A stretch of DNA of 64,000 bases, from positions 599,001 through 663,000 of the forward strand of contig JACCIC010000065.1 in the NCBI GenBank assembly GCA_018907035.1, written 5' to 3'. The position numbers and the translations under genes were made by a program. Shown piece after piece: positions 11,137 to 48,299 of the stretch; the stretch's first letter is position 1; the number at the start of each line of letters is the position of its first letter. This DNA is from Sycobia sp. Sy_11 (taxonomy: Eukaryota > Arthropoda > Insecta > Hymenoptera > Epichrysomallidae). The notes under the pieces are model-generated. The model had not been told where the DNA came from. It saw nothing but the letters and a program-made list of their open reading frames with translations, and did not search any database.

Positions 11137-11673
11137 TTAAGTGCTATCTCTACCGATCTTATAAGGCAAAGTCAAAAGCCTCTCTGGAATCTTTGCTAGA
11201 CACACATTAAAGCTGAGTTCATCCATTTTCTGGTTCCAATATAGGCCTAAAACGCGTTCTTCCGACCGATCGCATAGTTGCGCTACCGGCGCATCCTCCG
11301 CCCCTTCATTAACTCTAATATCCGGAATCGCGCAAGGGTCGTTCGACGTACAGCCGTGCATATATAAATTAGACACTACGTTTATTTTTACAAAATCGCG
11401 AACAATACGTCTCGCTTCCTCTACAGTTTTTTTGCTCATTAAAAAATCATCCATATATGAATCATTTACGACTTGTTTCGAAGCCTCCGGCATTACTTCC
11501 GCGAATCTCAAAGCATTTTTATTTTTGTCGAATGTTTTGCATGGTGAACATTTTAAACCGAATATAAGGCTATTCATTTCGTATACGCGTGGTTGTACCT
11601 TTCGATCTTTCCTTCGCCATAGAAATCGTTGCGCGCCACGATCGCTATCGCGAACCTTGACTCTTAAAAACAT
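11137..11673 (-). pseudogene. BEL/Pao reverse transcriptase fragment with YMDD
   Basis: 178 codons in one frame include the polymerase metal-binding motif in SYMDDFLMS and downstream RT/connection sequence (LGLYWNQKMDELSF). The upstream RT part is in a different frame. The fragment ends before RNase H and integrase. Confidence 0.8.
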
Positions 11674-12620
11674 ATCTTTGATATCTGATTTAATGGCGTT
11701 GAGACTAACGCCTGACGTCTTCGTGGCAGCGTCGAAAACAAGTCTGAGCTTACCCGGATTTTTTGATTCGTTACTTCGAAATGCGGCAAGAACCAGATGC
11801 GCGGTCGAGGTTCATTGTCTCTCACTTCAACCACGTACGTATCTTCAAGAAATTTGTCTATCTCGGCATAATACATACGTGCAAACTGCGGATCTCTGTC
11901 TAGCTTTTTCTCGAGAGAAAATAGTCTTGAGCGAGCTGTCGCTCGGCTGTCTACATTCGGAATCACGTTGTGCCACCACAAGAGACCCGTTTCACACGTC
12001 GTCTCTGTCAATCGAGTCGTTTGCTCCAATATCTTTAACGCGCGATCATGCTCCTCCTGTTTGTTTGTCGCGGCATTTACTCCAAAATTTTCAGTTAAGA
12101 AATATCTGTTTATCATATCCTCCATACACTCGTTCTCAAATACTTCCTCTCCCATCACGGACGCTATTTTTGCGAGCGTCACGCCGGAAAAATCGTTGCG
12201 AGCGCTTAAATTTTCCTCCATTCTGCCCCTGTGTACTGCCCATCCAAGCCAAGAGCGAAGAGCGAAATTATCTTGACCTAACAATATTTTTGGCTCGGTG
12301 TTTTGATACGGGTTCACCTCTATGTCCTCGGTTAGTCGAATGCACTCACACACTTTTACCGAGAGTGACTGAGACAGCAAACTTTGATTCCTAACTGCGA
12401 TCGCGTTTATGACGCATTGAGTCCCAAAACTCCCCCGTATTTCTACGCTTAATTTTTCGGAATCGGCGCACATTACCTCTATCTCCGCGAGATATCCCTT
12501 TTAATTTTATCGTTATTGGTTCGCCGGTTATTCCGATTTACGTTACTAAGTTCAAGTCTATTAAACTCGCGGTCGAGCCTTTGTCGACGAGAGTGTACGT
12601 ACGCATGCAAGTTTTAGGCC
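11664..12620 (-). pseudogene. BEL/Pao protease and N-terminal RT segment
   Basis: The aspartic-protease active-site region at about 12545-12610 reads LVDKGSTASLID, with Lys where the family has Ser (D-S/T-G), so the protease is probably dead. After a break the 269-codon frame at 11664-12473 continues through ILLGQDNFALR into the linker and RT start (FLPHFEVTNQKIRV), matching BEL/Pao order. Confidence 0.75.
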
Positions 12621-30250: not shown

Positions 30251-30638
30251 ATAAAAATTTTTATCGGTTTTACAGTTTTTCTACAATAATATAATATACT
30301 AATATAATGAGTATCGGACAGTCTTTATGTATAATCACCACCGTACAATCTGAAATAGAAATTACAACTAAATAGTAAAATAAAAACTAATTAAATAAAA
30401 AATAAATAAAAAAGTTAGAATTAAGTAAATTATATTAGAGTTTTCGAAATTAACTAACAGTTCCAAACGTCGGAAATGAAAAGTAAATTTAAATTTAAGC
30501 TGGTGGGGGAAATCAGATTCTCCATTATTAACATAGAATATAGATTAATTTATTTGTATGATTTTTAATTTTTAATTTTTAATTTAAATGATTTTTTATT
30601 TTATGTGTTATTAGTAATTTGTATTTTAAATTTTATGG
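30251..30638. other. AT-rich flank left of the nested LTR elements
   Basis: No gene seen. The outer LTR starts at 30639. Confidence 0.5.
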
Positions 30639-30959
30639 TGTAACATCGAGCTAATAATCATAATAAAATATTATTAATTTTATTAAGCAAGAAAAAAATA
30701 TTACAGGTAAACATTGAAAGTATATATATTCATATACACGTATATATATAAATGTAAACTAGAGTTTTAAATATAATATATTATAATAGAGATAAATATA
30801 TATACATAAAAATAAATATAATGTATTATAATACGTATAAGTATATATATATATATATTTTTTTTTATGTGTGTATATATATATATATATATAAACATAA
30901 TATATACTAATAACACATAAAAATATATATATATATATATTTATAAAGAAAAATATATA

Positions 30960-31000
<41 letters not shown>

Positions 31001-31035
31001 AAATAAATACAGACAATAATAATAATAATACTTGA

Positions 31036-31107
<72 letters not shown>
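30639..31107 (+). repeat. Outer element 5' LTR, left part
   Basis: Starts TGTAACATCGAGCTAATAAT, as does the 3' LTR at 47547, and runs through shared AT-rich sequence into (TA)n and (GT)n tracts. It is interrupted at 31108 by the nested minus-strand element and resumes at 39980. Confidence 0.9.
31040..31107. repeat. (GT)n microsatellite within the outer LTR
   Basis: About 60 bases of GT. The 3' LTR has only a short GTGTATATAT at the equivalent place, so this tract expanded after insertion, or the longer version was lost there. Confidence 0.9.
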
Positions 31108-31413
31108 TGTAACGGTGCGCGTGTCCGCCTCGAGCACGAGGACGGCGGGCACGGCCGTTGCAAATCTGTGCCCGGCTGAGCTTAGCCCCGAATGATTCCG
31201 GCGAGGGAGAGGGGCGGTTCGCGAAGGGCGAAATATCGCGTTCAGGATTGCGCGTGAGTAGGGCGGCTAATTGAACACACTCGAAATAATAAAATAAAAA
31301 TAATTAAAATTTAAATCGGCTTTAATAGCAAGGATTCGTACAGCACCTATATGCGAGGCGTGCGGGACGCAGGCCGAGGGTCGCCGAGGCGACGGCGCGC
31401 GAGGAGTTCGGGA

Positions 31414-31445
<32 letters not shown>

Positions 31446-32045
31446 GGCTGCCACTTACAGCGAGTCGGAGCTCGATGATCCCGCAGCGCGTCCTCGTCCG
31501 GCAGCAGCACCTTTCTTCACCGGGTGAGGCGGTGACGTCGCCGTCCAGAAACTCCGGGATTGGGGCGGTTATTTCGCGGAGACGGGGTCGGACGACAGTC
31601 CGTTCGCTCGGACTCGTCCTAGGCGTGTGTGCACTGCACGCACCCACAATACCGTGGCACAACACGCGTGTCCGATCGGGTACACTCCCCGAAGAAGAGG
31701 TACGTGGTGAGGGGAAACACGTGGAGCACGAGGCGTGTTCCCGTACACGACCAAACACGACACTGTAACAGCAAAAACAACGTGCGTGGAGCGAAGGCCG
31801 GTTACGACGCGTGTTCAAAGCTCGCGGGTTTCTCTCTATCTAATTCTTCGCGCGCGTGGCCGTCTCTCCCCACTCCCCGCTCTCTCTCTCACTTACCTCT
31901 CCGCCGATGTAGTTGTGCGTCGGCCTGTAACAGATCAACATTTATACATGGAAGTATACAAATACACATTTACAGGCTACGGCTAGAGAGAGAGCAACGG
32001 GACGTGGGAAAGCAAGCGCACGTAGTGCTTGCGTTCCCCGTCACA
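31108..32045 (-). repeat. Inner element 3' LTR
   Basis: About 938 bp, on the minus strand TGTGACGGGGAACGC...CCGTTACA, GC-rich, with a (GA)n tract at about 31415-31441. It differs from the 5' LTR by scattered substitutions and small indels. Confidence 0.92.
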
Positions 32046-33800
32046 CGCCCCCCCTCCAGACGCTGGTAGCCGAAGTGTGACAGCTCGACCCAACATCTCT
32101 CTGTCGGATCGACCATCGTGTCAGGATGAGGAACTGGGGTGGCTGCGGTCTACCGCTGGGGATCACCGGAATGAGGAAGGACGGGTAAAGAACTCCCTTC
32201 CCTAGACGCAGTTGTTTTTGGAGGGCCGGATTCGCCGGCATACTGTCGACAAGTTCGGAAGTTAATCGGCGGGGGGATTGGTCCCGCGGCGGGGTTGAGC
32301 GTCCGCTCTTCCTGGGGCGATCTACTTTTCGCCTCACCAGGCGCGCGTCGTTATGACAGGCGGCTTCGCTGTTATTGGGCTCCGCAGGGGCTCGCGCTTG
32401 GGTTCTTCGACGGGTTACGATTCGCGTCCTACGCAGTCTCCCTAATCTTCGCGGTGCGATATCGGTGTTAGATCGCGTGGCATTGCCCGCGGGGGTATCG
32501 CTTCGCACGCTCGTATCGGAATTACAATGAGGCGCGTCGTCGGGGCGCCGTACGCTCACCAGTGGTGTTACAATGCGGATTCGCTCGCTCGCCTCGACAT
32601 TACAATTTGACGCATCGCAGTCACGCTCTTCGCCCGAAGGCTCTTCCGTGTCGGAACTATTATCATTTTCGGGGTCGTGATCTCGATGGTAGAGCTTCAG
32701 GTCGGCGACGTGATGCTTACCAGCATCTCTTTCCGTAGAGTCGATCAGTCGATAAACATTCGTGCCGTGTTTCTCCATGATGGTAAAGGGCCCGTCGAAT
32801 TTCGGGGCCAGCTTACCGCTGACGCCCTGTATGCCTGACGAGAGGATGCGATTACGCCGCCATACGCGATCGCCAATCGCGTAATGCACGTTGCGACGTC
32901 TCGCATAATAATAGCGAGCTTGATTTGCCTGCGCTTTCTGTGAGTTTTCCGCTGCTTTTAGATGGAGATCAGATAATTTCTCCATGCGCTCTTTCCAATG
33001 TTGTAGAGCAGCCTCTTCTTGCACAATCTGTGCGCGCTGCTTCTCCTGGCGACGGTGTGTGCCAGGGGCTGAGGGGTGACGACCCGTGTTAAGGAAGGCC
33101 GGACTTACGCCAATGGAATCTTGTACGGATGTATTGTACGCGAACATCAGCTCGGCGATGTGCGCATCCCAAGTACTGTGAGACTCCTCAATGAAGGCGA
33201 TTATCGCGGTCTTCAGAGTCCTATTGATCCTCTCTACCGGATTGGCTTGAGCGTGATAAGGAGGTATCGTGGAATGCTCCACCCCACGCTCTACAAGGAA
33301 TTTCTCAATGATTTTATTACGAAATTCGGTGCCATTGTCCGATAGGAATACTTCGGGCGTACCAAAGCGTAAAAATACGCGGTCTTTCAACTCGCGGCGA
33401 ATCGTTTGCGCATTCGCCTTTCGGATGGGGATACACTCTACCCAGCGAGTGAATAGATCCATGAAGACGAGCAAATACTCGTATCCCCGGATAGATCGTG
33501 GAAATGGACCCATCACATCTCCAGCTACTATTTCCCAAGGGTGGGTGACCGTTCGATGGCCCATCAGGCCAGCTGGTGCAGCCTGCTGTACCTTACATTG
33601 TTGGCACACAGTGCAGTCACGGACAAATTGTGTCACATCTTTGTGCATTGATGGCCAATAGTATGATCGTGCAATACGATCATACGTTTTATGTTGTCCG
33701 AAATGACCAGCTGTGGGCTCCTCATGACATTCGTGAAGAACGGTACGACGATCTTCTTTAGGCACGACTAACTTCCACGCATCCTGGTCATCTACTAAAT
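32041..33800 (-). CDS. Inner element integrase, open reading frame (574 codons)
   Basis: A long intact frame (33765 down to 32041, open a little further upstream). The N-terminal HHCC zinc domain shows HECHEEPTAGHFG...CTVCQQC. The D,D-35-E core shows GDVMGPFP, SDNGTEF and ANPVERINR. A GPY/F-type C-terminal domain contains KLAPKFDGPFTIMEK. A long polar tail then reads to the LTR edge. In an intact element it inserts the cDNA into host DNA. Immediately upstream the frame is joined out of phase to protease sequence, so it has no RT and no in-frame gag-pol connection. Confidence 0.9.
32046..32057 (-). other. Polypurine tract of the inner element
   Basis: On the minus strand GGAGGGGGGGCG immediately precedes the 3' LTR start TGTGACGG, the expected plus-strand priming site. 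Confidence 0.75.
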
Positions 33801-34337
33801 CTTCGACGCGGTATTGAAGGCGTGGTAGAAGTCTGCACCGAGCAGACAGTCATTTTCCAAGTCTGGAATTATGATGACGTCTAGCTCCATTTCTACGTCT
33901 GCTATGGCAAACGGAAGGGCCACCTGGCCTATTATCGGCTCAATTTTTCCCGTGGCGAGTCGAGCGCCAGATCCAGGAAAGGGTCGAACTAGACGACCGA
34001 GGGCAGATGCAATCTGCAGGCCGATTGCTCCGAGAGCTGTACGAGCAGCCCCTGCATCAAGCAGTGCATGAATGCGAAACTCGCCTATGCCTACCTGTAT
34101 CCACCATCGCGAATACCGATCGGGGTCGACACTTGTGGCTGAGTCAGCGGAGTCACGGTCGTGATGCTCCTCCTTTACAGACAGGAGGGGGCAATCATGA
34201 TTACCCTGTGTCCTCGCAGCTGCATGCTGATCTTCAGAGGTCTCACGGAGTGTAGGGTCTAGTTGAACCTCAATTACTCGCCCTTTTTCGCATTTTCCGA
34301 ACACTCGGGACAGCTGCGCAAGGTGTGGCCAGGCCAA
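33795..34337 (-). CDS. Inner element protease segment (180 codons)
   Basis: Contains HALLDAGAARTALG, the aspartic protease active site (D-A-G rather than the usual D-S/T-G), and the second conserved block LENDCLLGADFYHAF. After FNT the sequence switches to text that normally stands before integrase, and the frame ends within a few codons. This marks the RT-RNase H deletion joint. Confidence 0.8.
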   Translation of the reverse strand: MAWPHLAQLSRVFGKCEKGRVIEVQLDPTLRETSEDQHAAARTQGNHDCPLLSVKEEHHDRDSADSATSVDPDRYSRWWIQVGIGEFRIHALLDAGAARTALGAIGLQIASALGRLVRPFPGSGARLATGKIEPIIGQVALPFAIADVEMELDVIIIPDLENDCLLGADFYHAFNTASKI

Positions 34338-36074
34338 CTACAGCCCCAGCACAAGAACCGCGGATCAGTACCTGCTGTCCGACCTTTGTTCTTGTCACTG
34401 AGGGGTTCGCGCACCAGCTTTCCTTTGAAGGAGGGCTTCCTCTCCGACTTAGGTGAGGTCGACGCTCTGGTCTTTCCTGTACGCGGCGACCTCGGGCGTG
34501 AATCGCGACCGCTCCTCTTCGGGATAAGGGCTGCGACGCCTGGCGCCTCTAAATCAGGTGAGGTGGCTCTAAAGCCAGCCTCTTGCAAAACTTCTCGCAC
34601 CAGAGCTTTGAAGTTGGGCGGCTTCACGTCCACGGCTGCGATCCTTGGTTTCGGGCGCGATCGAGACGTGTCTGCCGCATGGAAGGCCACTTCGGGCATT
34701 ATGCCGTCCTCGGGTGACGGCGGTGGCTTATAATTTCGCTCCGCATCGAGGACGCATTCGGTCTCTCGAGCAAGCTCGATTAGCTGGTTGACGCTTGTAA
34801 TCTTCTCCCGCGGAACTAACTTCTGTATCTCTGGAAGTAGATTACGCTAGATAAGGGCGAGCTGTTTGTCGTCCGACCATGGTTCTTCGAACCGATTGAG
34901 AATCGTTAACAAACAAAACACGTAGTCATGTGTTGTCTCGCGTTTCGCCTGCGTTCGCCGCTGCGCTTCGCTGATTAGCTCAGCTTGAAAGCGTCGATCG
35001 ACGCCGTAGTAGCTCCGGGCTGCGTGGCAGAACTCTTGCCACGTGGTCCAGTCCTTCTGGGATAGACGGTACCAATGCAGGGCGACACCGTCGAGGAGCT
35101 CCGTCATGGCATTGAGCATGTCCTCGTCCGTGAGCGGTGTCAACCTGCGACATTCCGCGATCCTCTGCAGAAATTCTTCTACGCTTTTCCCCTTGGCACC
35201 ATTGAATCTAATTTTCCATTGGCGCACGGTCTTACCAATATCCGTGTGCTGGGCCAAGGTGCTTGACAGCGTTGATCGCGTTATATTCGCGGGCGAGTTC
35301 ATCACATCTCGATCCATGTGATGCCCCCCCCCTTCCAGGCCCTTGGTACCGGGGGTGGCAAGGAGCCGAAAACGTGGAGGTTTTTGTCACTTTCCAAGTA
35401 TTGCAGATCGTACGTGTCTTGGAAAGTGGCACGGTAGCGTCGCGCCGATTTCTGCAGCTGTTGCTGAATGCTAGCTAGCGTAGCGTTCATCTCATTTTGT
35501 CTCTGCTGCAAATCTTGGACAGTGCAGTTTTGGTGTTGCATCCAAGTTTGCAGCATATTTTGCAGGCTATGTAATCCCTGACTAAGGTTTACATTGTTTT
35601 CGAGGTCAGTAGGTTGAGGCTCGACTGTTGTATTCGTCGTATGAGATGCGACTTGCGCCTGACGTGTTATGTTATTCGTGACACACGAGTCGGGAGGCGT
35701 AATTACGCTCGAGGTGGCTGCCTGAATCGGCGATTCGTTGGCAGTACTCCATGCGAGCGATTCATGCCTGTTTATCTCAGCCAAATTGAAGTCGATCAGA
35801 TTTTGTATTTGGTGATCGACAGCTGCTGTGCTATTTCTTTGGTCTGTGCTCAGATGAACTTCCCGAGCCTGCTGTATGTCAGCTGATTCATCCGCTTGTT
35901 CGGCTACACAAAGTCTCCTGGGCTATAATTTCCTGCCAGTCTGCGGTATAGCCTGGCAGCCCTTTGAAATGGGGAACCCTCATTTTTTAATTCTAGTTCC
36001 GCTGTAATTATGTTTGTTTCTTCCTCACATAGGCTTTGAAGCCAGTCGTTAAAGTCGTTTGGCGGGTTTGCCAT
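34274..36074 (-). pseudogene. Inner element gag, broken
   Basis: ATG at 36074 starts MANPPNDFNDWLQSLCEEE; a frameshift follows near 35905. The next frame (to 35302) holds a Gln-rich coiled coil (LQQRQNEMNATLASIQQQL). A run of C (poly-G on the coding strand) at about 35327 shifts into the frame 35317-34847, which carries the retrotransposon gag core (IRFNGAKGKSVEEFLQRI, WTTWQEFCHAARSYYG). A TAG at 34847 interrupts, and the continuation to 34274 ends with one CCHC knuckle, CWGCSWPGHTLRSC. An intact protein would form the capsid. Confidence 0.85.
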
Positions 36075-36389
36075 CTTTTATTTCTTCAGTTGAAAATTAG
36101 AAGAAGACAAACGAACAAACGGAAAAAAAAATACAACGTGAGAAAAATAGAACGTTACAGCCAAAACTTTTTGGCAAATGATTAAAAGCCGGCAATCTCA
36201 AGAGATAGTGGAGTGCGAGGGCGAAAACGCAAAAATTAGGGGCAACTGACGCAAAAAAAACAGAAAATATAAGGGAAAAAAAATTCAACATTTTTCAAAA
36301 ATTTTCCCAAAATTCTTATTTTGGCTTTCGAATTCTCGATTTTCCGAAAAAAATTATTTTGAAATTGTAATAGTTTTTACTTTTTGTAT

Positions 36390-37670
36390 TAGGAGTGTGA
36401 ATAAGTCTTTCCCGTTTTTTGTAAGAGATGGCGCCACCAATACTGTGCGAGTATTCAATGGTTACATATGTCATAATCAAAGCTTATTCATATGTCAACA
36501 ATTCCATACTAACACATTAGTTAAAATTTTTTCGCATCATAAATTTTTGATATCGTGAAAATGTCGAAATTTGAGCCGAGTCGACGTCATTTGCGGGAAG
36601 TTTCACTTTATTGGTTCAACTTGAAGAAATCTGCTGCCGAGACGCATCGATTGCTTCAGGCTTATGGAGAAGGTTGTGTCGATGATTCAAGTGTTCGCGG
36701 ATGGTTTCGACGCTTCAAAAGCGGTGATTTCGACGTGGAAGACAAGGAGCGTTCCGGGCGGCCGCAAATCTTTGAAGATCGAGAATTGGCGACTTTGCTT
36801 GATGAAGATTCTTGTCAAACGCAAGAAGAACTTGCTGAAGCATTGGGAGTTGACCGAACAACCATTTCCAAGCGTTTGAAAGCCATGGGAATGATCCAAA
36901 AGCAAGGAAATTGGGTGCCGTACGAACTGAAGCTGAGAGACGTCGAACGGCGTTTTTTCACTTGCGAACAGCTGCTTCAGCGACATAAAAGAAAGGGTTT
37001 TCTGCATCGTATTGTGACTGGCGATGAAAAGTGGATACGTTACGATAATCCGAAGCGAAGAAAATCATGGGGACTACCCGGCCATGCATCATCATCGACG
37101 GCCAAGCCAAATATTCATGGCGCCAAGCTCATGCTCTGTATATGGTGGGACCAGCTAGGTGTGGTTTACTATGAGCTTCTGAAACCGAATGAAAGGATCA
37201 CAGGCGAGGTCTATCGACGACAATTGATGCGTTTGAGCCGCGCACTGCGAGAAAAACGGCCACAATACTCCGACAGGCACGACAAAGTTATTTTGCAACA
37301 TGACAATGCTCGCCCACATGTTGCACCGCCGGTGAAAACATACTTAGAAACGCTCAAATGGGAAGTCCTACCCCACCCGCCGTATAGTCCAGACGTTGCT
37401 CCGTCTGATTACCATCTCTTCAGATCGATGACGCATGGCCTGGCTGACCAGCACTTCCATTCCTACGAGGAAGCCAAAAAATGGGTGGATGACTGGATAG
37501 AGGCCAAACCGGTCGAATTTTTTCGCAACGGGATTCGTATGTTGCCAGAAAGATGGGAAAAAGTTGTAGCTAGCGATGGCCAATACTTTCAATAATTCAT
37601 TTGTAACCATTTTTTCACAATAAAGGCTCAAAATTTAAAAAAAACGGGAAAGACTTATTCACATACCTGA
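36390..37670 (+). mobile_element. Mariner A, full length, inside the inner LTR element
   Basis: About 1.28 kb flanked by TA at 36388-36389 and 37671-37672. The ends share GTGTGAATAAGTCTTTCCCG on the left and, reverse-complemented, the nearly identical ATGTGAATAAGTCTTTCCCG on the right. It encodes an uninterrupted transposase. A near-identical 5' fragment at 27421-27780 shows this family recently moved or duplicated here. Confidence 0.95.
36561..37595 (+). CDS. Mariner A transposase, apparently intact
   Basis: An uninterrupted frame of 346 codons from a GTG at 36555, or 344 from the first ATG at 36561 (MSKFEPSRRHLREV), which I prefer as the start. The N-terminal half has two helix-turn-helix motifs (SVRGWFRRFKSGDFD and LAEALGVDRTTISKRL) around the GRP linker. 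Catalytic residues are D in VTGDEKWIRYDN, D in ILQHDNARPHVA and D in PYSPDVAPSDYHLF, the D,D34D triad of mariner. The WVPYEL block links the domains. Length equals the family norm. It cuts and re-inserts the element at TA. All visible key residues are present, so it may be functional. Confidence 0.95.
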   Translation: MSKFEPSRRHLREVSLYWFNLKKSAAETHRLLQAYGEGCVDDSSVRGWFRRFKSGDFDVEDKERSGRPQIFEDRELATLLDEDSCQTQEELAEALGVDRTTISKRLKAMGMIQKQGNWVPYELKLRDVERRFFTCEQLLQRHKRKGFLHRIVTGDEKWIRYDNPKRRKSWGLPGHASSSTAKPNIHGAKLMLCIWWDQLGVVYYELLKPNERITGEVYRRQLMRLSRALREKRPQYSDRHDKVILQHDNARPHVAPPVKTYLETLKWEVLPHPPYSPDVAPSDYHLFRSMTHGLADQHFHSYEEAKKWVDDWIEAKPVEFFRNGIRMLPERWEKVVASDGQYFQ

Positions 37671-37754
37671 TATTTTTCAAGAAATGTAAAAAAATACAAA
37701 AATACAAAAAAAAAGAAAACACAAAAAAATCAAAAAATAAAAATATAGTTTATT

Positions 37755-38035
37755 TTTAGTCCTTTTATAACTTCTAAAAAATTTTTATTTTTCAGTTTTC
37801 AAACAAAAAATTTTTATTTTTTTTAGTTTTCAAAAAGAAAAAAAAATTTTATTTTTCAGTTTTCAAAAAAAAAAAAAAAAAAAATTTTAGTTATTAGTTT
37901 TCAAAAAAAAAAAAATTTTAATTTTTAGTTTTCAAAAAAAAAAAAAATTTTTATTTTTCAGTTTTCAAAAAAAAAAAAAATTTTAATTTTTAGTTTTCAA
38001 AAAAAAAAAATTTCCAAAAAATTTTTAAATATTTT
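37755..38035. repeat. Tandem TTTTCAGTTTTCAAAA...AAATTTTTA minisatellite
   Basis: Six or seven imperfect units of roughly 40-60 bases, each with CAGTTTTCAAA or TAGTTTTCAAA followed by a poly(A) run and ATTTTTA, in the leader of the inner LTR element. Confidence 0.85.
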
Positions 38036-39000
38036 CCGATTTTTCAAAAAAAAATTTATTTTGCACCTTTAAAAAACAAATTTTGTTTTTGTATTTTTGA
38101 AAGAAGGGGAAAAAAAATTATACTGAAAAAATATTAAAGATATTACAATATCAAAATGAAGATCAGAAAGCGAAAAGCATAAAGGGAACAATCAATTTTG
38201 ATCAAATTAAATTGAGAGCAAAGAAAAATTTGCGTTAATCGCATGTACACTGTATGTACAGCGTAGAGTCGCGGTGGTGTGTGTATGTGAATATACACAG
38301 ATCGCTGACTTCGCTATTTATAGTCGACTATGTGTAAAGAAGAGAAATTTTGATTATATTTAATTTACACTAACTGTTCCTTATGCCTGTAACGGCGAAA
38401 ATTTATTATTATATTATAATGGCGAATGTAAATCTATTTAGATCAGTTACATTTTCATATTACGCTATCTTAAAAATTAATTATTGATTAATTTTAGTTT
38501 AGCTTAGATGGAATTCACATATTTAATTTAAGTTAAATTTTAAAGTTACATCCAACTAATATATATATATCAGTATTATATAAATTAATGTATATGTGTG
38601 TATTTAACTTAAAATTAGTTTTGCTTGAAAAAATGCACAAATATTATATTACCGTATTCGGCATTATGTTTCATTTGTGCTGCTTTTCAGCCGCTTTCGC
38701 CGAATTGCCGTTGGCCTTGGCCGACTTCGAAAGTGTTTACAACTACGAACTCGCAACGTAAACACTCGCGATGTGCTGTGCGTTCGCACTCTGTAATATT
38801 ACAATTTTCGATATAATAAAATTATTAAATTATTTCCGCGCATCCGCGTCATTTGCGAATATTCGCCGGGGCACTAAATATAATACAATACATTATGCCA
38901 TATATATTATAAAATATATATATGCAATAAAATACATCATAGCATATATAATTAAATATGCATAAATGTATAAATGTATATATATTCCTATATCAAGTGC
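38036..39000 (-). other. Leader region of the inner LTR element
   Basis: AT-rich DNA between the PBS and gag with no supported open frame. Short ORFs at 38625-38965 look incidental. Confidence 0.5.
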
Positions 39001-39025
39001 GATCCCGAGATCGCGTTGGGCGCCA
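39001..39025 (-). other. Primer-binding site of the inner element
   Basis: Directly inside the 5' LTR on the minus strand the sequence is TGGCGCCCAACGCGATCT, with the TGG expected to pair with a tRNA CCA end. The tRNA identity was not determined. Confidence 0.8.
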
Positions 39026-39329
39026 TGTAACGGTGCGCGTGTCCGCCTCGAGCACGAGGACGGCGGGCACGGCCGTTGCAAATCTCTGCCCGGCTGAGTT
39101 TAGCCCCGAATGATTCCGGCGAGGGAGAGGAGCGGTTCGCGAAGGGCGAAATATCGCGTTCAGGATTGCGCGTGAGGTAGGGCGGCTAATTGAACACACT
39201 CGAAATAATAAAATAAAAATAATTAAAATTTAAATCGGCTTTAATAGCAAGGATTCGTACAGCGCCTATATGCGAGGCGTGCGGGACGCAGGCCGAGGGT
39301 CGCCGAGGCGTCGGCGCGCGAGGAGTTCG

Positions 39330-39380
<51 letters not shown>

Positions 39381-39976
39381 GGCTGCCACTTACAGCGAGT
39401 CGGAGCTCGATGATCTCGCAGCGCGTCCTTGTCCGGCAGCAGCACCTTTCTTCACCGGGAGAGGCGGTGACGTCGCCGTCCAGAAACCCCGGGATGGGGC
39501 GGTTATTCCGCGGAGACGGGGTCGGACGACAGTCCGTTCGCTCGGACTCGTCCTAGGCGCGTGTGCACTGCACGCACCCACAATACCGTGGCACAACACG
39601 CGCGTCCGATCGGGTACACTCCCCGAAGAAGAGGTACGTGGTGAGGGGAAACACGTGGAGCACGAGGCGTGTTCCCGTACACGACCAAACACGACACTGT
39701 AACAGCAAAAACAACGTGCGTGGAGCGAAGGCCGGTTACGACGCGTGTTCAAAGCTCGCGGGTTTCTCTCTATCTAATTCTTCGCGCGCGTGGCCGTCTC
39801 TCCCCACTCCCCGCTCTCTCTCTCACTTACCTCCCCGCCGGTGTAGTTGTGCGTCGGCCTGTAACAGATCAACATTTATACATGGAAATATACAAATACA
39901 TATATATAGGCTACGGCTAGAGAGAGAGCAACGGGACGTGGGAAAGCAAGCGCACGTAGTGCTTGCGTTCCCCGCC

Positions 39977-39979
<3 letters not shown>
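39026..39979 (-). repeat. Inner element 5' LTR
   Basis: About 954 bp, nearly identical to 31108-32045 apart from scattered substitutions and a longer (GA)n tract (39332-39375). Its outer edge abuts a (TA)n run at 39980 that belongs to the outer LTR. Confidence 0.92.
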
Positions 39980-40025
<46 letters not shown>

Positions 40026-40311
40026 TTTTGTGGAATAAAAATCGAAACTAAAATGACCAAATTTCATCTAGCATGTCATAATCTTGTTTGGGCGAGGAAA
40101 ACAATTTCATAATACCGCCGAAATAAGACGTTGGCTTGCGCAAGATCATACGTCAGAAGCGTATGTTTCTCCGACGAAGGTCTCATAGGTAACGCAACAT
40201 GTACATTAACGATGCGCTAGTGTACAATTTTTGATGTTTAATTTATAGTAAAATTAATACTTTAAACAATTAAACCGCATTTTTAATAAAACAAATATTT
40301 AACACAAAAAT
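39980..40311 (+). repeat. Outer element 5' LTR, right part
   Basis: A (TA)n run followed by ATAGAGTTTTGTGGAATAAA and about 280 bases matching 47930-48214 with only a handful of differences. It ends near AACACAAAAAT, after which the two LTR flanks diverge. Confidence 0.9.
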
Positions 40312-40335
40312 AATAACAAATAATAACAGAAACAA

Positions 40336-40641
40336 ATACTTAAAAGGGAGAGAGAAAATCTCAATAAGGAACAAGCTGAAAATACACAATTGAAAAATAC
40401 GATATTACAAATGTATTCCCTGCTCACCGAAGAGCAGGACGAATTAACAAAATCAGATAGAAGAGAACAACAAATTATAACCTTGCTAAAAGAAAAACAA
40501 GGAGATGAGAAAAACTTACAAAGTATTATTGCTGCAATTATAAAGGCTATAATAAGCCTACATAAATCTCCTAAAAAGGAGGATACTGAAACTATAGAAA
40601 GCCTAGAAAAAGCGTTTGCACAACTTTCCTTAATGGAATAA
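40336..40641 (+). CDS. Small coiled-coil ORF in the outer element leader
   Basis: Open from about 40336 without a clear ATG until TTG 40390/ATG 40411. It contains heptad-like Leu/Glu/Lys sequence (NLNKEQAENTQLKNTILQM, then QQIITLLKEKQGDEKNLQ) and ends LSLME. It probably represents the N-terminal part of a gag-like protein or a separate leader ORF. About 570 bases with many stops separate it from the main gag frame. Confidence 0.45.
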   Translation: MLKRERENLNKEQAENTQLKNTILQMYSLLTEEQDELTKSDRREQQIITLLKEKQGDEKNLQSIIAAIIKAIISLHKSPKKEDTETIESLEKAFAQLSLME

Positions 40642-41209
40642 ACCTCACGAATAGAAGTGAGATTAAATAATCACAAATTAATAAAAATTTTCAAAAGAAA
40701 AACACAAACCATTTAATGATAAAAAAAGGAGAGAGAACGTAACAAATGAGTATAACAAATCGGGATGCTATAAATTAAACAAATGAATTAACATTAACAA
40801 ATTAATAACCCAAACTCACGATTCGAAAGGATTTAAAAAGAAAAAACACAAAATAAAAATTAATACGGCCAAGCACCAAAGCCTCTGAGCTACAAACGAT
40901 AGCCATGCGCAACTGCCTCTCGATCGAAAATTATTCACTGAATCATTACAAAAATTTATGAAATGATTTTAGTAATCAATATATATCTCGTAACACGCAA
41001 TTTACGAACAAATATATATTAAAATAAAATTATTAAACAGGTGAAGTTTGAGGAAACAATTAAAAATAATTTAATGAAATCAATTGGAAAAATAGAGAGA
41101 GAAAATCTAATTAATAAAATATCGAAACAAACGGTAGTCGTACGCAACTGCCTCACAACCATATAAATAAAAAGGAGATACATTTATACACATATACATT
41201 AAAAATCGA

Positions 41210-42510
41210 ATGAATACACGTAGTAAAACTCGATCAGGGAAGGAGTTAGAAATCCCATTAAAAAATGAATCTGAGAATCAACCAAGGGAGGACGAATTCA
41301 GAAATCCTCCGAAAGACTTAAAAGAAGTTAAATTTACGCCCTTCGGCTCATCTACGCCACAAGACCAATCTGATGTCGAACAAAACATACAAAATATCAG
41401 TCCCCTGCATACAGGGTTGTCGACCCCTGAAAATCTATCGTTTTCCAGCGATTCTATAGATATCGCCGAACAAGACACACTCAGACCACACTTATCGCAT
41501 CTGACAAGTGATTGTTTAATAGCCGAACACTCCTCCAGTACTAACAAGGCGAACGAACAAGCTGCAACCTTACCTCTAAAGGAAGCATTAAAAATCTTTC
41601 CTGAATTTGACGGAAAAAATATTCCCCTTAGCCAATTTTTAGAATACTGCACAGAAGCTAGAGAACTTATAAGCAGCAATCTCGAGGAAAGCTTCGCAAA
41701 ACTGCGCAAGAGAAAACTCTTGGGTGAAGCACGAGAAATAATATCGAGGTACGCATTCACCACGGTCGAAGAGTTCAAAGAACATTTAAAAGACTTTTAC
41801 GCCCCATCAAAAAATGTACACCAACTACTCGGCGAATTGAGTAGTCAATATCAAAAAGAAAATGAATCAGTCATACAGTATGCGAATAGAATGAAGCTAT
41901 CGAGGACGTAGTAAAAGACGCGATAGCAGTAGAACGAATTCTCGAAGCTCGAGCGAATTTATTTAGGAGGCAAGAAATACGCCATAAACCTAATAAACAA
42001 AATATTTACCCCAGACAGATAAATAATCTAACTCTTCTGAGAAATACACCTTGCAGCTACTGCAATATAATAGGTCATACGTTTGCAGAACGTCGGAAAA
42101 GACTCAGACCAAGCCAAACGCTATTATGCCAAACTGGCGGACGGTCAAATCATACCACCTCTCAGTGCTTCGCAACGATCAAGTGTCAAGCATGTAACAC
42201 AATCGGTCATAATGCCCGCGACGGCAGAAGTAGCAATAGACCCACGTCTATAACATGCCAGCTATGCAATAAGCCTGGCCATACAGCTAACTTCTGTCGA
42301 ACTAATCAAACGAATAAACAAAAACCGATTCCGAAATGCCAAAAATGTGGAAGGTTACGGCACTCTGAAGCTACATGTAGCTTCAGAGTGCCGTAGCTAC
42401 ACATAGCTTCACATGCGCTTACTGCAAGTACCCAGGGCACACAATATCAGAATGTCGAAAGCGGCAATATAATCAGGGAAATGGACGAAGTCCCCAGAAC
42501 GAGAGCGCGA
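41210..42510 (+). pseudogene. Outer element gag with a zinc-knuckle array, broken
   Basis: ATG at 41210 opens 233 codons (MNTRSKTRSGKELE), with a Ser/Pro-rich N-terminus and the capsid block ALKIFPEFDGKNIPLSQFLEY typical of errantivirus-type gag. The frame breaks at 41911 and continues in another. From about 42050 to 42470 comes a series of CCHC-type knuckles: CSYCNIIGHTFAE(R), a degenerate one, CQACNTIGHNARD(G), CQLCNKPGHTANFC, CQKCGRLRHSEATC and CAYCKYPGHTISEC. Two have lost the last Cys. A perfect palindrome at 42356-42395 interrupts the array with a stop. Confidence 0.8.
42356..42395. repeat. 40-bp perfect palindrome
   Basis: Both halves (TACGGCACTCTGAAGCTACA and its exact complement) are continuous, without a spacer. 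It lies between the fifth and sixth zinc knuckles of gag and introduces a stop. Confidence 0.95.
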
Positions 42511-42520
42511 ATAGGGGGAC

Positions 42521-43330
42521 TTGCGACAGACAAACGCGCTCAATGAACACAAACCAATTATCGAATCTGCTAGGCGAACTAATACCCTCGGAGCCACAAG
42601 AAACAACTACGTTCCATACGTAGAGGTTCAGTTCGGGCCACAATATCTTCTTTCTTTTATGATAGACAGTGGATCCGAAGTAAGCATTATCAAAATAGAA
42701 TCAATACCAAAAGGGGCGCACATAAACGAATCAAAAATGTATACACTAACAGGAGTAGGAGATAGTAAAGAAACAACCCTAGGTACCGTATCATTAAAAA
42801 TTGCCGGACAAAGAATCGAACTTCTCGTAGTATCAGACGAGTTTCCTATTCCTTACAATGGAATTATAGGATCAGGATTCTTAACAGATACCAACGCCGA
42901 ATTAATCTTTAGCCATAAACAATTCATCATAACTGGCCAGACGACGAACTTACGACTAGGAAATGAAACCTTAGACATCCCTACTGAAACTAACCAAAAA
43001 TCTCCGATAAGAAAAAGGCCCACGCGTGACGTGGCGCTACAGGCACTTTGTTATGTCGAAAGCGAGCCGGAATCACACGAAGAGTTTGAAGCTGAACCAA
43101 GAGCCTTACTCCAACTGATAACCGCTAATCAGCTAGAAGAGACAAAATCAATATCCTCCATCGATTTGTCAGTTAGCCTAAATTACGACAAAGAATACGA
43201 GGTTGAAAGAGGCAAGGTAATAGAAACCAAAGATTTCATATGCCACCGCAAAGATAACATCGTTTTCTTTGTAACTAGCGATGAAAAGCCCTGTGACGAC
43301 GGTGCTAAAAAAACTACTGGAAAACAATGA
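42521..43330 (+). CDS. Outer element protease with fused downstream linker
   Basis: A 269-codon frame. The retroviral-type aspartic protease carries the active site FMIDSGSEVSII at about residues 46-57 and the flap/ILG-like block NGIIGSGFL. After about residue 165 the sequence no longer looks like protease or RT. It resembles the region that in related elements lies between RNase H and integrase (NIVFFVTSDEKP). The RT and RNase H domains expected here are absent, so an internal deletion is inferred at about 43000-43100. Confidence 0.7.
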   Translation: MRQTNALNEHKPIIESARRTNTLGATRNNYVPYVEVQFGPQYLLSFMIDSGSEVSIIKIESIPKGAHINESKMYTLTGVGDSKETTLGTVSLKIAGQRIELLVVSDEFPIPYNGIIGSGFLTDTNAELIFSHKQFIITGQTTNLRLGNETLDIPTETNQKSPIRKRPTRDVALQALCYVESEPESHEEFEAEPRALLQLITANQLEETKSISSIDLSVSLNYDKEYEVERGKVIETKDFICHRKDNIVFFVTSDEKPCDDGAKKTTGKQ

Positions 43331-43700
43331 CATAAGCATTAATCCAATGGATATTGGAGATGTCCAACAAATAAAAGGGTCGCACTGCAAAAACCTCTTC
43401 GCGTTATGCATACGAGGAGAAATACCCATATTCATGACTATAATAAAAACCAATATATACAAAACTTTGTCGATCTTAAAGGAAATTCTAATCAAAATAG
43501 GAGAAAACCTTATTAGCATTGCCAAAAGCAAGAACATTGAAAACATAGAATGGAAAGACATTTTGGAAACAATAAAGTCATCCTTTACGAACTCCCCGAT
43601 TAAAATTATCATTTGCACTGACACCCTTAAATTAGTTCCAAAGTAAAAGAGGGATGAAATTTTTTACGAGCTACATAAGTCACCAATAGGAGGACATAGA
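43281..43700 (+). pseudogene. Outer element pre-integrase linker
   Basis: The 121-codon frame 43281-43646 continues the linker in a new frame (VQQIKGSHCKNLFALCIRG, then IKIIICTDTLKLV). A stop and then YELHKSPIGGHRG, the start of integrase, follow. A frameshift at about 43300 separates it from the protease frame. Confidence 0.55.
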
Positions 43701-44741
43701 GGAGTGTCCAAGACAGATAATCGAATCAAACAGAAGTATTATTGGAATAACATAAAGGAAGACATTCAAAGAAGAATACAACAGTGTTTAGATTGTCAAC
43801 TTAAAGAACTAGTGAGATTAAAGACCAAACAACCAATGGTGATCACCGATATCTCTGGTACACCCTTTTGTAAAATAGCTTTAGATATCGTAGGGCCATT
43901 AACCCCTACTAAACTTGGAAACGAATACATCTTGACAATGCAAGATCAATAACTCTAAATTCTGCGTAGCAGTTCCGTTACCAGATACACTGTCCACTAC
44001 CATAGAAGATTTTTTATAAAAAAATTTATTTGCACCTTCGGAACACCAAAAATCATTCTAATAGACCAACGGAAAAATTTCCTTAGTAGCTTAATGAACC
44101 GCATAGCTAAACGGTTTAAAATAAAGAAACTACGGACAGCCGCTTTCCACCCGCAATCCAATGGATCGCTAGAACGCTCACATCACATGTTGGGCGAGTT
44201 CTTCAAACAATACACCACCAACGACGAGGAATGGGACAGCTGGTTAGACATAGCCATTTTAAATTATAACACTTGTGTCCAAGAAAGCACCAAGCATACA
44301 CCATATGAATTAATTTTCTCTAGAATCGCCAGGTTGCCTTCTATCGATCCTCTAAGAGAAGGAGACTTACTACCCACGTAAAATGGATATCTAGTCGACT
44401 TAGTCACACGGTTGAATGGAATCCAGAAATTAGCCTCTGACAATCTAGTATCCTCAAAATTTCGTTCAAAGAAATATTACGACAGAAAAATTAATCCACA
44501 GAATTTTAAAATAGGAGATTATGTATTCCTACTATCTGGTCCTAAACCAAATGAATTTGGAAACCATTACTCTGGACCTCATAAGATACTAGAAGTGTTA
44601 AACAAGAATAATATTAAGATCCAAGTAAATAAAAGCAGTAAAATCGTTCATGCGAATAGACTTCGCATCTCTTACATAAATAAAGAAACAACAGCTCAAA
44701 AGAAAAAGGGTAGACAGAAAGAGCAGGAGAAACCAGATTAA
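43655..44741 (+). pseudogene. Outer element integrase, broken
   Basis: The HHCC region reads HKSPIGGHRG ... CLDCQ. The first catalytic Asp is in ALDIVGPL (ORF 43704-43952). The second is in LIDQRKNF-like text at about 44055 (altered from the usual D-x-G). The Glu lies in HPQSNGSLERSHH (ORF 44094-44381). The C-terminal domain in ORF 44412-44741 contains FKIGDYVFLLSG and NHYSGPHKILEV, the GPY/F-type block. At least three frame breaks or stops separate these parts. Confidence 0.85.
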
Positions 44742-45215
44742 TCAGTGTCTTCCTTAGCTAGAAAATTGCTTCTAGCACCTTAAACATTTAAAAGTTTTTA
44801 AAAAAATAAAATATATAAACCTTATGAAATAACTTCCTCATCCTCCGCTAGACTACCTAACGCTTCATACCTTTTATACTAACCTTATGATAATATTAGA
44901 TCGTTAAGCAATAGAAGTAGACAAATGAAACTTTCTACCGTATCAAAAAGATCAAAAAGGTGATCATCCTAGAATTTGAGCTAACAAGATACGAGAAAGT
45001 CACATAAATACAATAGACATAAGAATATTGTTTATAAGAGTAATATAACGCACGACCTGACCTTAAGAAAGAAGGAAAGTGTTAAACAAACGCATTCAAT
45101 TTACGTGCAATTAAATTCTATATTTTTTAGTTGATCAAAGCCGAACTCGCAATCGGTTTCATTCTTTCTTATGTCATAATTATCTTACTTTTCAGATTAC
45201 GCAACTAACCTCTTT
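44742..45215. other. Pol-env spacer of the outer element
   Basis: AT-rich, no open frame. An env mRNA would need a splice acceptor here; TTTTTTAG at about 45124-45131 and TTACTTTTCAG at about 45186-45196 are candidates. Confidence 0.4.
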
Positions 45216-47247
45216 ATGATTTCAGAAAAGATGATATCCCTACACATGATACTTTTTACCTTATTTTTCGTCACCCCAACAAAAACAATGATAGGATACG
45301 ATTGCGGATCTAATATCATGAATATAACAACCATGTCGTTATTAGACGTCGGGGAATGCAATTTTCCTCAACTCCACCCTATAAGCCAATTTGCCTATAT
45401 ACAGCTACTTCAAATCAACGATTTTCAAGAAACCAAACATTACAATGTAAAATAGAGATACGGAGAACCATCTATTACTGCGGGATGCATTCGCATAACT
45501 CTATTGTTAATAACGGCGAAATGGAATACTTGTATGACGTCAGTAGAGATAGTTGTTTACAATTACATTTAACTAGGATAATCAACTTCGGACAAAATCA
45601 GGTTATAAACGGGGTCAAAATTAACCAAACAAATATATATTCCATGACCTACGCCGGAAGCATAAGCAATGACGGAACCTGCGCGGGGGCTTATTATAGC
45701 GATCCCTATGGAACTTGGAATTCTGTTATTGTCCAAGGAACCCTTAAAATCACCCTATCGCAACAATCGGCGCGAGTAAACTTACAAGACGACAAAATTC
45801 ATCTACAATCGGGAACATCATGTCCACTATCGGGAAACTTCTGCATAGACGCCAAAGATGGATATACCTTCTGGGAATCGGTCCCTAATAATGATTGCCA
45901 CTTTAATGAATACGGCGTATTATTCGAGGGCCATGCAATAAAAATGACTAACCCTCAGATAGATCAAGACGTAATCTATTTTTTTTCGGATCAAAAATTA
46001 ACATTCGCATTAAGTAAATTGTCCGAAGAAAAGGTATGCGTTTATACAATAATAAGAACCGAACACCCAAAATTGGTTATCTTCGAAACAAAAGAGGGCA
46101 TCACGTTTGCCAAAAAGAGTGCGTTATCTAGTAGTAATCTGGATATTTTCGCTTATGTAAATGCAAAATTCTGATATCTGAAAAAACATGTAAAAAACAA
46201 ATGCTTAACTTATACCGCAACATAGTGACAGAGCGATGTCGGGTAGAACAGATCGCGTTAAAAAACGCACTCGCTATTGTTACACAAAGTCCCGACCAAT
46301 TTGCGTATAACATAATGAAAGGTCCTGGCTATATGGCTGTAGTAGCCGGCGAAGTGGTACACCTGATAAAATGTTTACCAGTGGAAGTTAAGATAGATCA
46401 CGTCGATAACTGTTACACCGAGCTGAGAGTTGTAAGATAAAACACAACCCTCTTTCTCACACCAAAAACACACATCCTGAAAACTCGAGGGACTAGAGTT
46501 CCCTTCAACCAAGTGCTACCATCATACTACTGTATTGATAGCGAATGGTACAAATTGGCATCAAAACCGACCGAGGCAAGAGAACCCACAACCCTAAAAC
46601 CCATGACTCAGCTGACATGGAAATATATTAATCCCATCAGCCTAGCAACATCTGGAATCTACTCCAGTAAAGATTTAGAAAAACTAAAGGAACGAATTAT
46701 GTTTCCAGTAGAAACAGCTGCATTGTTGAATAATACAGCACACGAAATGCACGAATCTGGAGTGACGAGCGGCAAAACGATATCACATTTCATAAACGAA
46801 GACACTATGGATAATTTAGTAAATTCTGCTTGGAAAAAAATATGGAATAAATTTATCACCTTTGGATCCGCAAGCGCGGAGATAATAGCAGTCCTGGTGA
46901 TCATACACGTGATAGAATCGTTCATAGGGGTTGTACTCAACGGATACGCCCCTCATCGCGTATACGGTTGGTCCATATACCTATTGTCAGCCATTTGGAG
47001 CACTGCCGCACACTTCTTCATATCTCTCAAACAACCAACGACGAAACAAGAGGCAGGAAACAGTTACGAAATGATCGCTCAACCAGAGCCCGAGTCGGAA
47101 CCCAAGCCAGAACCAGTACTAACCACTACCGACGAGACAAAAGAAAAACAAACGTTTTTTCTGCAAAGCCATAAAAATCAATCCTCAACTTACGCGACTT
47201 TTCCAGAATTCGACAAAACAATAAAAGTAAATTTCCTATTTCCATAA
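45216..47247 (+). pseudogene. Outer element env, chuvirus-like (Monjiviricetes-type) glycoprotein, broken
   Basis: Four frames in succession: 45216-45455, 45356-46174, 46201-46440 and 46513-47247 (the last open from about 46441). The first has a hydrophobic signal-peptide-like start (MILFTLFFVTPT) and then YDCGSNIMNITTMSLLDVGEC. The third has GYMAVVAGEVVHLIKCLPV followed by CYTEL. The last has a transmembrane region (AEIIAVLVIIHVIESFIGVVL, about residues 119-139), a second hydrophobic stretch and an acidic/Pro tail. From memory, these Cys-rich motifs match glycoproteins of chuviruses and relatives rather than the baculovirus-F-like env of gypsy. If intact it would be a membrane fusion protein. 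The breaks make it non-functional. Confidence 0.7.
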
Positions 47248-47546
47248 TTACCAGATATCGAATTTCGCATGTATTAATGTAAGTAGAGTAAGCTGCGATA
47301 CAAAGAATCATGTGAACCCCACGCATCTTCGAACGAGGTTTTCCTATGGAGATTTTTTCTCACTGGGTTTTCTTTCCTTAGGTTTTCCCTCGTTCACAGA
47401 AACATTGCTCTGGGCAAATGTGAAGATCGAATGGGGAGGGAAAAAAATTTATATTTTTTGTCATATGTACACTATTTAACGCCGGATTACCTTAACAGAG
47501 GCGAACGATTGTTTTCATACTTCTAACAACCGTCTTACGCAAGGGG
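47248..47546. other. env-LTR spacer of the outer element
   Basis: Contains a purine-rich run (GGGGAGGGAAAAAAA) at about 47432 and AAGGGG directly before the 3' LTR, either of which could be the polypurine tract. Confidence 0.45.
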
Positions 47547-48214
47547 TGTAACATCGAGCTAATAATCATAATAAAATATTATTAATTTTATTAAGCAAGA
47601 AAAATATATTAAAGGTAAACATTGAAAGTATATATATTCATATACACGTATATATATAAATGTAAACTAGAGTTTTTAATATAATATATAATAATAGAGA
47701 TAAATATATATACATAAAAATAAATGTAAGGTATTATAATACGTATTAACACCTATATATAGGTATATATATAAACATAATATATACTAATAACACATAA
47801 AAAAAATATATATATATATTTATAAAGAAAAATATATAATATAATAATATATATATGTATATATGTATAAATAAATACAGACAATAATAATAATAATAAT
47901 ACTTGAACATATGTGTATATATATATATATAAATAGAGTTTTGTGGAATAAAAATCGAAACTAAAATGACCAAATTTCATCTAGCATGTCATAATCTTGT
48001 TTGGGCGAGGAAAACAATTTCATAATACCGCCGAAATAAGACGTTGGCTTGCGCAAGATCATACGTCAGAAGCGTATGTTACTCCGACGAAGGTCTCATA
48101 GGTAACGCAACATGTACATTAGCGATGCGCTAGTGTACAATTTTTGATGTTTAATTTATAGTAAAATTAATACTTTACACAATTAAACCACATTTTTAAT
48201 AAAACAAATATTTA
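47547..48214 (+). repeat. Outer element 3' LTR
   Basis: About 668 bp starting TGTAACATCGAGCTAATAAT and ending near TTTAACACAAAAAT. It contains (TA)n, (AAT)n and short GT tracts that are longer in the 5' copy. Confidence 0.9.
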
Positions 48215-48299
48215 ACACAAAAATTATAAAGAATATTTATGATAAAATTTAATTGTTTATACTAATATTAAGGCTAAAAGTAAGCAAAGTAAACAAAGT

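Follow-up and report, generated by a model that had tools for sequence, protein, structure and literature searches.

The window analysed here (the whole stretch of 64,000 nucleotides, positions 599,001 to 663,000 of contig JACCIC010000065.1 of Sycobia sp. Sy_11; Hymenoptera, Epichrysomallidae) contains two nested long terminal repeat (LTR) elements, and the outer one carries a glycoprotein gene in the position of a retroviral envelope gene (env). We are confident that this outer element belongs to a Ty3/gypsy endogenous retrovirus present in many copies, of which it is a dead one, and that its env encodes a chuvirus-type class III membrane fusion glycoprotein. It extends from about 30637 to 48229, and its LTRs enclose all of the env, pol and gag pieces, which lie on the plus strand in the order gag remnant, protease open reading frame (ORF), the piece that in sister copies intervenes between RNase H and integrase, a three-piece integrase, and env. 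The 5' LTR is interrupted by the inner LTR element and the 3' LTR is in one piece; with the dinucleotide repeat excluded, the two agree at 463 of 475 aligned positions (12 mismatches). The features of the outer element are as follows (aa, amino acids; RT, reverse transcriptase; L031, L034, L035 and L037, sister copies in the same genome; P0071, a relative whose structure was predicted).

30637..31045, plus strand: 5' LTR, first part, rich in dinucleotide repeat (blastn against the 3' LTR, 87% over 409 positions with 37 gap positions; 150/154 at the start)
39996..40316, plus strand: 5' LTR, second part (97.5% over 321 positions against the 3' LTR)
41210..41908, plus strand: gag remnant (Retrotrans_gag E 0.007, under the curated cut-off; 80% over 229 aa against L037)
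42521..43327, plus strand: protease ORF, reading through past the RT-RNase H deletion (RVP 1.8e-6)
43281..43643, plus strand: piece that sister copies have between RNase H and integrase (87% over 118 aa against L031)
43704..43949, plus strand: integrase, zinc-binding piece (Integrase_H2C2 1.1e-8)
44094..44378, plus strand: integrase, catalytic-core piece (94% over 95 aa against L031, whose pol frame matches rve at 9e-12)
44412..44738, plus strand: integrase, C-terminal piece (Integrase_p58_C 1.7e-4, under the curated cut-off; 94% over 109 aa against L031)
45216..47247, plus strand: env, chuvirus-type glycoprotein, broken (PF24664 on two pieces; three frames, one internal stop)
45216..45287, plus strand: signal-peptide-like start of env (hydropathy 2.09 over 15 residues)
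45479..45496, plus strand: CGMHSH, proposed first fusion loop, by analogy (hairpin tip in the P0071 model)
45698..45718, plus strand: SDPYGTW, proposed second fusion loop, by analogy (hairpin tip in the P0071 model)
46882..46938, plus strand: putative membrane anchor of env (peak of hydrophobicity in the C-terminal piece, averaging 2.75 across 19 residues)
47545..48229, plus strand: 3' LTR, matching both parts of the 5' LTR

The start codon of env (MISEKM...) is at 45216, and a hydrophobic stretch comes before IGYDCG and SLLDVGEC; GEVVHLIKC...CYTEL is located at about 46348-46425, and the last frame ends at 47247. A preliminary description of this DNA had named a signal peptide, the YDCG...SLLDVGEC start, the GEVVHLIKC...CYTEL region and a C-terminal membrane anchor, and the features that it named are present, with the limits 45216-47247 exact. 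The gene is broken: three different frames hold its start, its middle ORF (45356-46174) and its end, with a single in-frame stop near 46438. The putative signal peptide and anchor are assigned from the hydropathy of interrupted pieces. Searched separately, the 272 aa and 244 aa pieces of env both match the Monjiviricetes_fusion family PF24664 far above its curated cut-off of 27 bits (E 2.4e-87, 293.9 bits, profile positions 66-315 of 653; and E 1.3e-52, 179.1 bits, positions 431-645). At E up to 1, Pfam offers one further family, Trypan_PARP (0.42), a match that we take for chance. Neither piece matches Baculo_F at E up to 1 (a range in which the HMMER filters discard most matches above 0.1), and a Baculo_F-type env was ruled out on that ground; the proposal in the preliminary description of a Monjiviricetes-type glycoprotein is thus borne out.

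The predicted structure of P0071 has a class III fusion fold, and its best matches in a library of viral structures are the glycoproteins of dermapteran chu-related virus 142 (E 2.4e-51) and Soybean thrips chu-like virus 4 (7.7e-51), to which it is 28-29% identical. The chuvirus affinity of env is read from this fold and from the identity ranking among the structure matches listed, together with the family profile. The residues C80, G81, M82 and H85 of the proposed first loop, and D154, G157 and W159 of the second, are invariant across 50 homologues. A sequence search of the PDB with env gave no significant match, and two scans of viral contigs with env found no relative.

The pol of the window copy is incomplete. 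RT-RNase H is absent, about 2.36 kb of the L031 sequence being gone at 42984/42986, and the deletion junction is identical when the comparison is made with L034 and L035; the catalytic-core piece of the integrase has no rve match of its own in Pfam. The interval between integrase and env (44766-45157) could not be aligned to L031, L034 or L035, although the flanking pol and env align at about 88-91%.

Sister copies and relatives in other genomes

With the 272 aa env piece as query, the host genome yielded at least 146 matches, the window and a few split ones included, with identities of at least 64% in 121, 55-60% in 10 and below 55% in 15. From these we picked 20 copies in three env groups and examined the 5.6 kb upstream: group A, which is the window's own (n = 9; env 84-92% identical to that of the window), group B (n = 4; 56-57%) and group C (n = 7; 41-46%). 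Gypsy-type pol pieces precede env on its own strand in every one of the 20; RT pieces of at least 120 residues were found in 18 of the 20, as were integrase pieces of at least 100 residues. The pol frame of one sister copy, L033, has 1205 codons and matches RVT_1 (3.1e-39), RT_RNaseH (2.1e-34), Integrase_H2C2 (1.2e-18) and rve (8.2e-12), and its best matches among solved structures are the Ty3 Gag-Pol (1.4e-112) and Ty3 RT (1.6e-85). The pol order of Ty3/gypsy (protease, RT, RNase H, integrase) was seen in L031 and L033, and the LTRs were seen in the window copy.

The preliminary description had placed the element on a Ty3/gypsy rather than a BEL/Pao backbone, and this is upheld by the protease and integrase families in the window and by the RT, RNase H and integrase families and the Ty3 match in sister copies, the assignment being made from Pfam families and the Ty3 match. 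In sister copies, ten pol and protease ORFs show the families of gypsy-type pol and, at E up to 0.01, none of those that mark BEL/Pao.

Some sister copies have open genes. A methionine-to-stop frame of at least 600 codons is present in 8 of 20 env regions (mostly the same copies as those examined upstream), as single frames of 616-706 codons. The ratio of nonsynonymous to synonymous substitution (dN/dS) for env is 0.08-0.69 in 10 of 11 comparisons, one being saturated and the two lowest values having a dS near 1.3-1.4; for pol it is 0.44 and 0.79 in two of four comparisons, the other two being saturated. Since dN/dS is below 1 in all ten usable env comparisons, the data speak for purifying selection on env while the family spread.

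Among 29 env copies (L002-L030), 17 lie no more than 15 kb from a contig end, a region that makes up 2.3% of the genome. A telomeric habit was considered for these copies and rejected: ten 300-base pieces taken at contig ends hold a single TTAGG. Contig C122 starts within gag (read by eye), and assembly breaks are the simpler reading of the contig-end location.

The family has many relatives elsewhere. A first env search gave 64 proteins, a profile search 501 env relatives (the best 120 listed) and a pol search 2113 relatives (the best 120 listed) out of 7979 scored candidates. The organisms named among the matches listed are all Hymenoptera, which points to a hymenopteran host, and the env relatives include proteins of Trachymyrmex, Cyphomyrmex, Solenopsis and Atta. 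We paired 119 listed env rows with 119 listed pol rows, those for which a contig size is given (all but one on each side), by exact agreement of the source and size of the contig, which gave 14 exact pairs (13 different env proteins). Other offsets of up to 100 bases gave 0.37 pairs on average and never more than 2. Because of this excess over neighbouring offsets, it is very likely that env and pol share contigs in other genomes too.

Descent of pol and env

The paired RT and env trees comprise 23 rows (5 of group A, 2 of B, 4 of C and 12 paired contigs); P0090 was omitted, as it pairs with two pol rows. The RT tree (100/100) and the env tree (96/96) have their deepest split in common, with 9 of the paired contigs on one side and the rest on the other. 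Within the host genome the two trees part: the RT tree joins A with C (90/90) and rejects A with B (approximately unbiased test, p-AU 0.038), whereas the env tree joins A with B (89/88) and rejects A with C (p-AU 0.049). We read this as a long joint inheritance of env and pol with possible exchange of env, the evidence for exchange being suggestive only.

Such an exchange, in which env passed between gypsy lineages within the host genome so that group A has its pol ancestry with C and its env ancestry with B, would add to the explanation of the outer element as an endogenous retrovirus and is compatible with it. We consider it a serious possibility, though one towards which we do not quite lean. 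Beyond the opposite groupings of the two trees, it would account for the wider env tree of 64 rows, which also joins A with B (94/96) and places C elsewhere, with two unnamed proteins (92/66), and for the distances, in which the RT of A stands at 83-85% identity to five C copies but at 64-74% to three B copies, yet the env of the window is nearer to the B copies used (55-57%) than to C (41-46%). Several points tell against it. Both tests are marginal, the groups A, B and C were named only once the distances were known, and the key forks carry no star; the env branch of C is long (0.74), and a faster change of env in C may have produced the same pattern. Further, two copies with a C-type env, C214 and C202, have an RT only 70% and 62% identical to that of A.

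The shared deepest split also bears on a quite different explanation, namely that the glycoprotein is an ordinary endogenous chuvirus element that came to lie beside gypsy fragments by chance or through shared insertion sites, and is not a retroelement gene at all. An earlier report on such glycoproteins saw mostly fragments and, in the passages concerned, "no clear evidence" of capture by gypsy (PMC10084718), which would suit this explanation. However, the env of the window lies inside the LTRs, the pol pieces occupy the same fixed position upstream of env on the same strand in all 20 chosen copies across three env groups, and env-pol pairs recur in other contigs, with 9 of the 12 paired contigs set apart from the rest in both trees; we therefore think chance neighbourhood very improbable. 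Still less probable is a BEL/Pao element with a chuvirus glycoprotein in the manner of Anakin: the type of envelope is the same, and in mosquitoes such glycoproteins are described together with BEL/Pao (PMC7642597), but the gypsy-type pol families in the ten sister-copy ORFs, which lack any BEL/Pao family, and the Ty3 match ruled out such a backbone. That env is a domesticated host gene adjoining the element, as its purifying selection might hint, can be given almost no credence with at least 146 matches, many of them broken, and pol upstream in those examined.

The explanation that we prefer, an endogenous retrovirus of Ty3/gypsy type with a chuvirus-type env, follows instead from three bodies of evidence: in the window, the outer LTR pair, the PF24664 env and pieces of a gypsy-type gag, protease and integrase; in sister copies, the position of pol, the recurrent RT and integrase, the Ty3 match and the open env frames; and, further, the dN/dS of env below 1, the class III fold, whose nearest matches are glycoproteins of chu-related viruses, and the 14 env-pol pairs. 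In an intact copy, the env product would be guided to the membrane by its signal peptide and would coat budding Gag particles. By analogy with VSV G (the vesicular stomatitis virus glycoprotein) and herpesvirus gB, it may fuse membranes via the two loops of its first domain, and could in this way carry the element from cell to cell, perhaps out of the ovarian soma into the germline, a route taken by Drosophila gypsy. The window copy is incapable of such passage by itself, because RT-RNase H is deleted and the pol and env frames are broken.

Age and the nested insertion

LTR dating uses a substitution rate of about 3e-9 per site and year, at which the 12 differences in 475 positions put the age of the window copy, to which the dating is confined, at about 4 million years. 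LTR pieces of two other copies (C340 and C33) were compared and gave no clean LTR pair, for which dinucleotide repeats or misplaced stretches are a possible cause. Long dinucleotide repeats are found in the LTRs of this family (30637-31045 in the window, and L071-L074), and the inner element is inserted within one of them.

31108..39979, minus strand: inner LTR element, separate from the outer one (LTRs 31108-32045 and 39026-39979, a direct repeat at 96%)

The inner element has a gypsy-type integrase match on the minus strand, with weak protease and gag matches, and is without env. Its RT is apparently missing too, since its protease ORF ends (33798) about where its integrase ORF starts (33765); both nested gypsy elements of the window would then be without RT. 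Within the inner element lies a mariner-type transposase ORF (36555-37595, 346 aa) that is fully open (Transposase_1 8.4e-25, HTH_48 3.1e-13). Elsewhere in the window, at 11137-12473, two minus-strand ORFs resemble the remains of a BEL/Pao polyprotein by eye; Pfam gave no match for them at 1e-3.

Known elements and wider meaning

Envelope-bearing LTR elements of several kinds have been described, and the comparisons drawn here extend to the parts of the cited papers that were available. The family resembles insect errantiviruses such as Drosophila gypsy in its Ty3/gypsy backbone and in having env downstream of pol and integrase, but their env is of the F type, related to baculovirus F (PMC12992720), whereas here Baculo_F is unmatched and the fold is of class III. 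It resembles Anakin of mosquitoes (PMC7642597), an LTR retroelement that likewise uses a chuvirus-type glycoprotein as env and multiplies it with the element, and differs from it in having a Ty3/gypsy rather than a BEL/Pao backbone. The viruses nearest in structure, dermapteran chu-related virus 142 and Soybean thrips chu-like virus 4, differ in that their glycoproteins are listed as those of RNA viruses; ours is the env of a retroelement.

Close to the present family are also the env-carrying gypsy elements with type III fusion glycoproteins mentioned in a recent report (PMC13172572; EMBO Rep 2026), which describes this class of fusion protein as common to gypsy, BEL and RNA viruses; in the passages concerned those elements are from mosquitoes, and here the family is hymenopteran. 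Gypsy fragments beside such glycoproteins had also been noted in Hymenoptera (PMC10084718). As far as these passages go, gypsy with a chuvirus-type env is therefore already in print as a kind, and the present family is a further case of it. The preliminary description had called the combination notable: the combination is indeed there, but with these two precedents its rarity was overstated. A capture of the glycoprotein gene separate from that by BEL/Pao, which it also suggested, would go further than the evidence does. We found no description of this particular family in the open-licence PMC literature; it may be covered by the catalogue that underlies PMC13172572 (Chary and Hayashi 2025, 10.7554/eLife.108449).

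For one genome, the point left open in the relevant passages of PMC10084718 is now answered: the chuvirus-type glycoprotein belongs to the gene set of a gypsy element, which has multiplied it. The same kind of glycoprotein is known from ants as "Mono-Chu" endogenous viral elements (EVEs), 224 of them in an ant-only group that was interpreted as an undiscovered virus clade (PMC6540820); the word gypsy does not occur in the available portion of that text. Ant proteins are among our env relatives, and counts of ant "chuvirus" EVEs may in part be counts of retroelements instead of infections. Many paired pol and env genes are now available for testing the exchange of env between endogenous retroviruses. 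It is a serious possibility, though one that falls short of likely, that the chuvirus-type envelope is an exchangeable module of hymenopteran gypsy retroviruses, long inherited together with pol and swapped between lineages inside one genome; if this is true, much of the signal of an "unknown chuvirus clade" in ant genomes would be the env of gypsy endogenous retroviruses.
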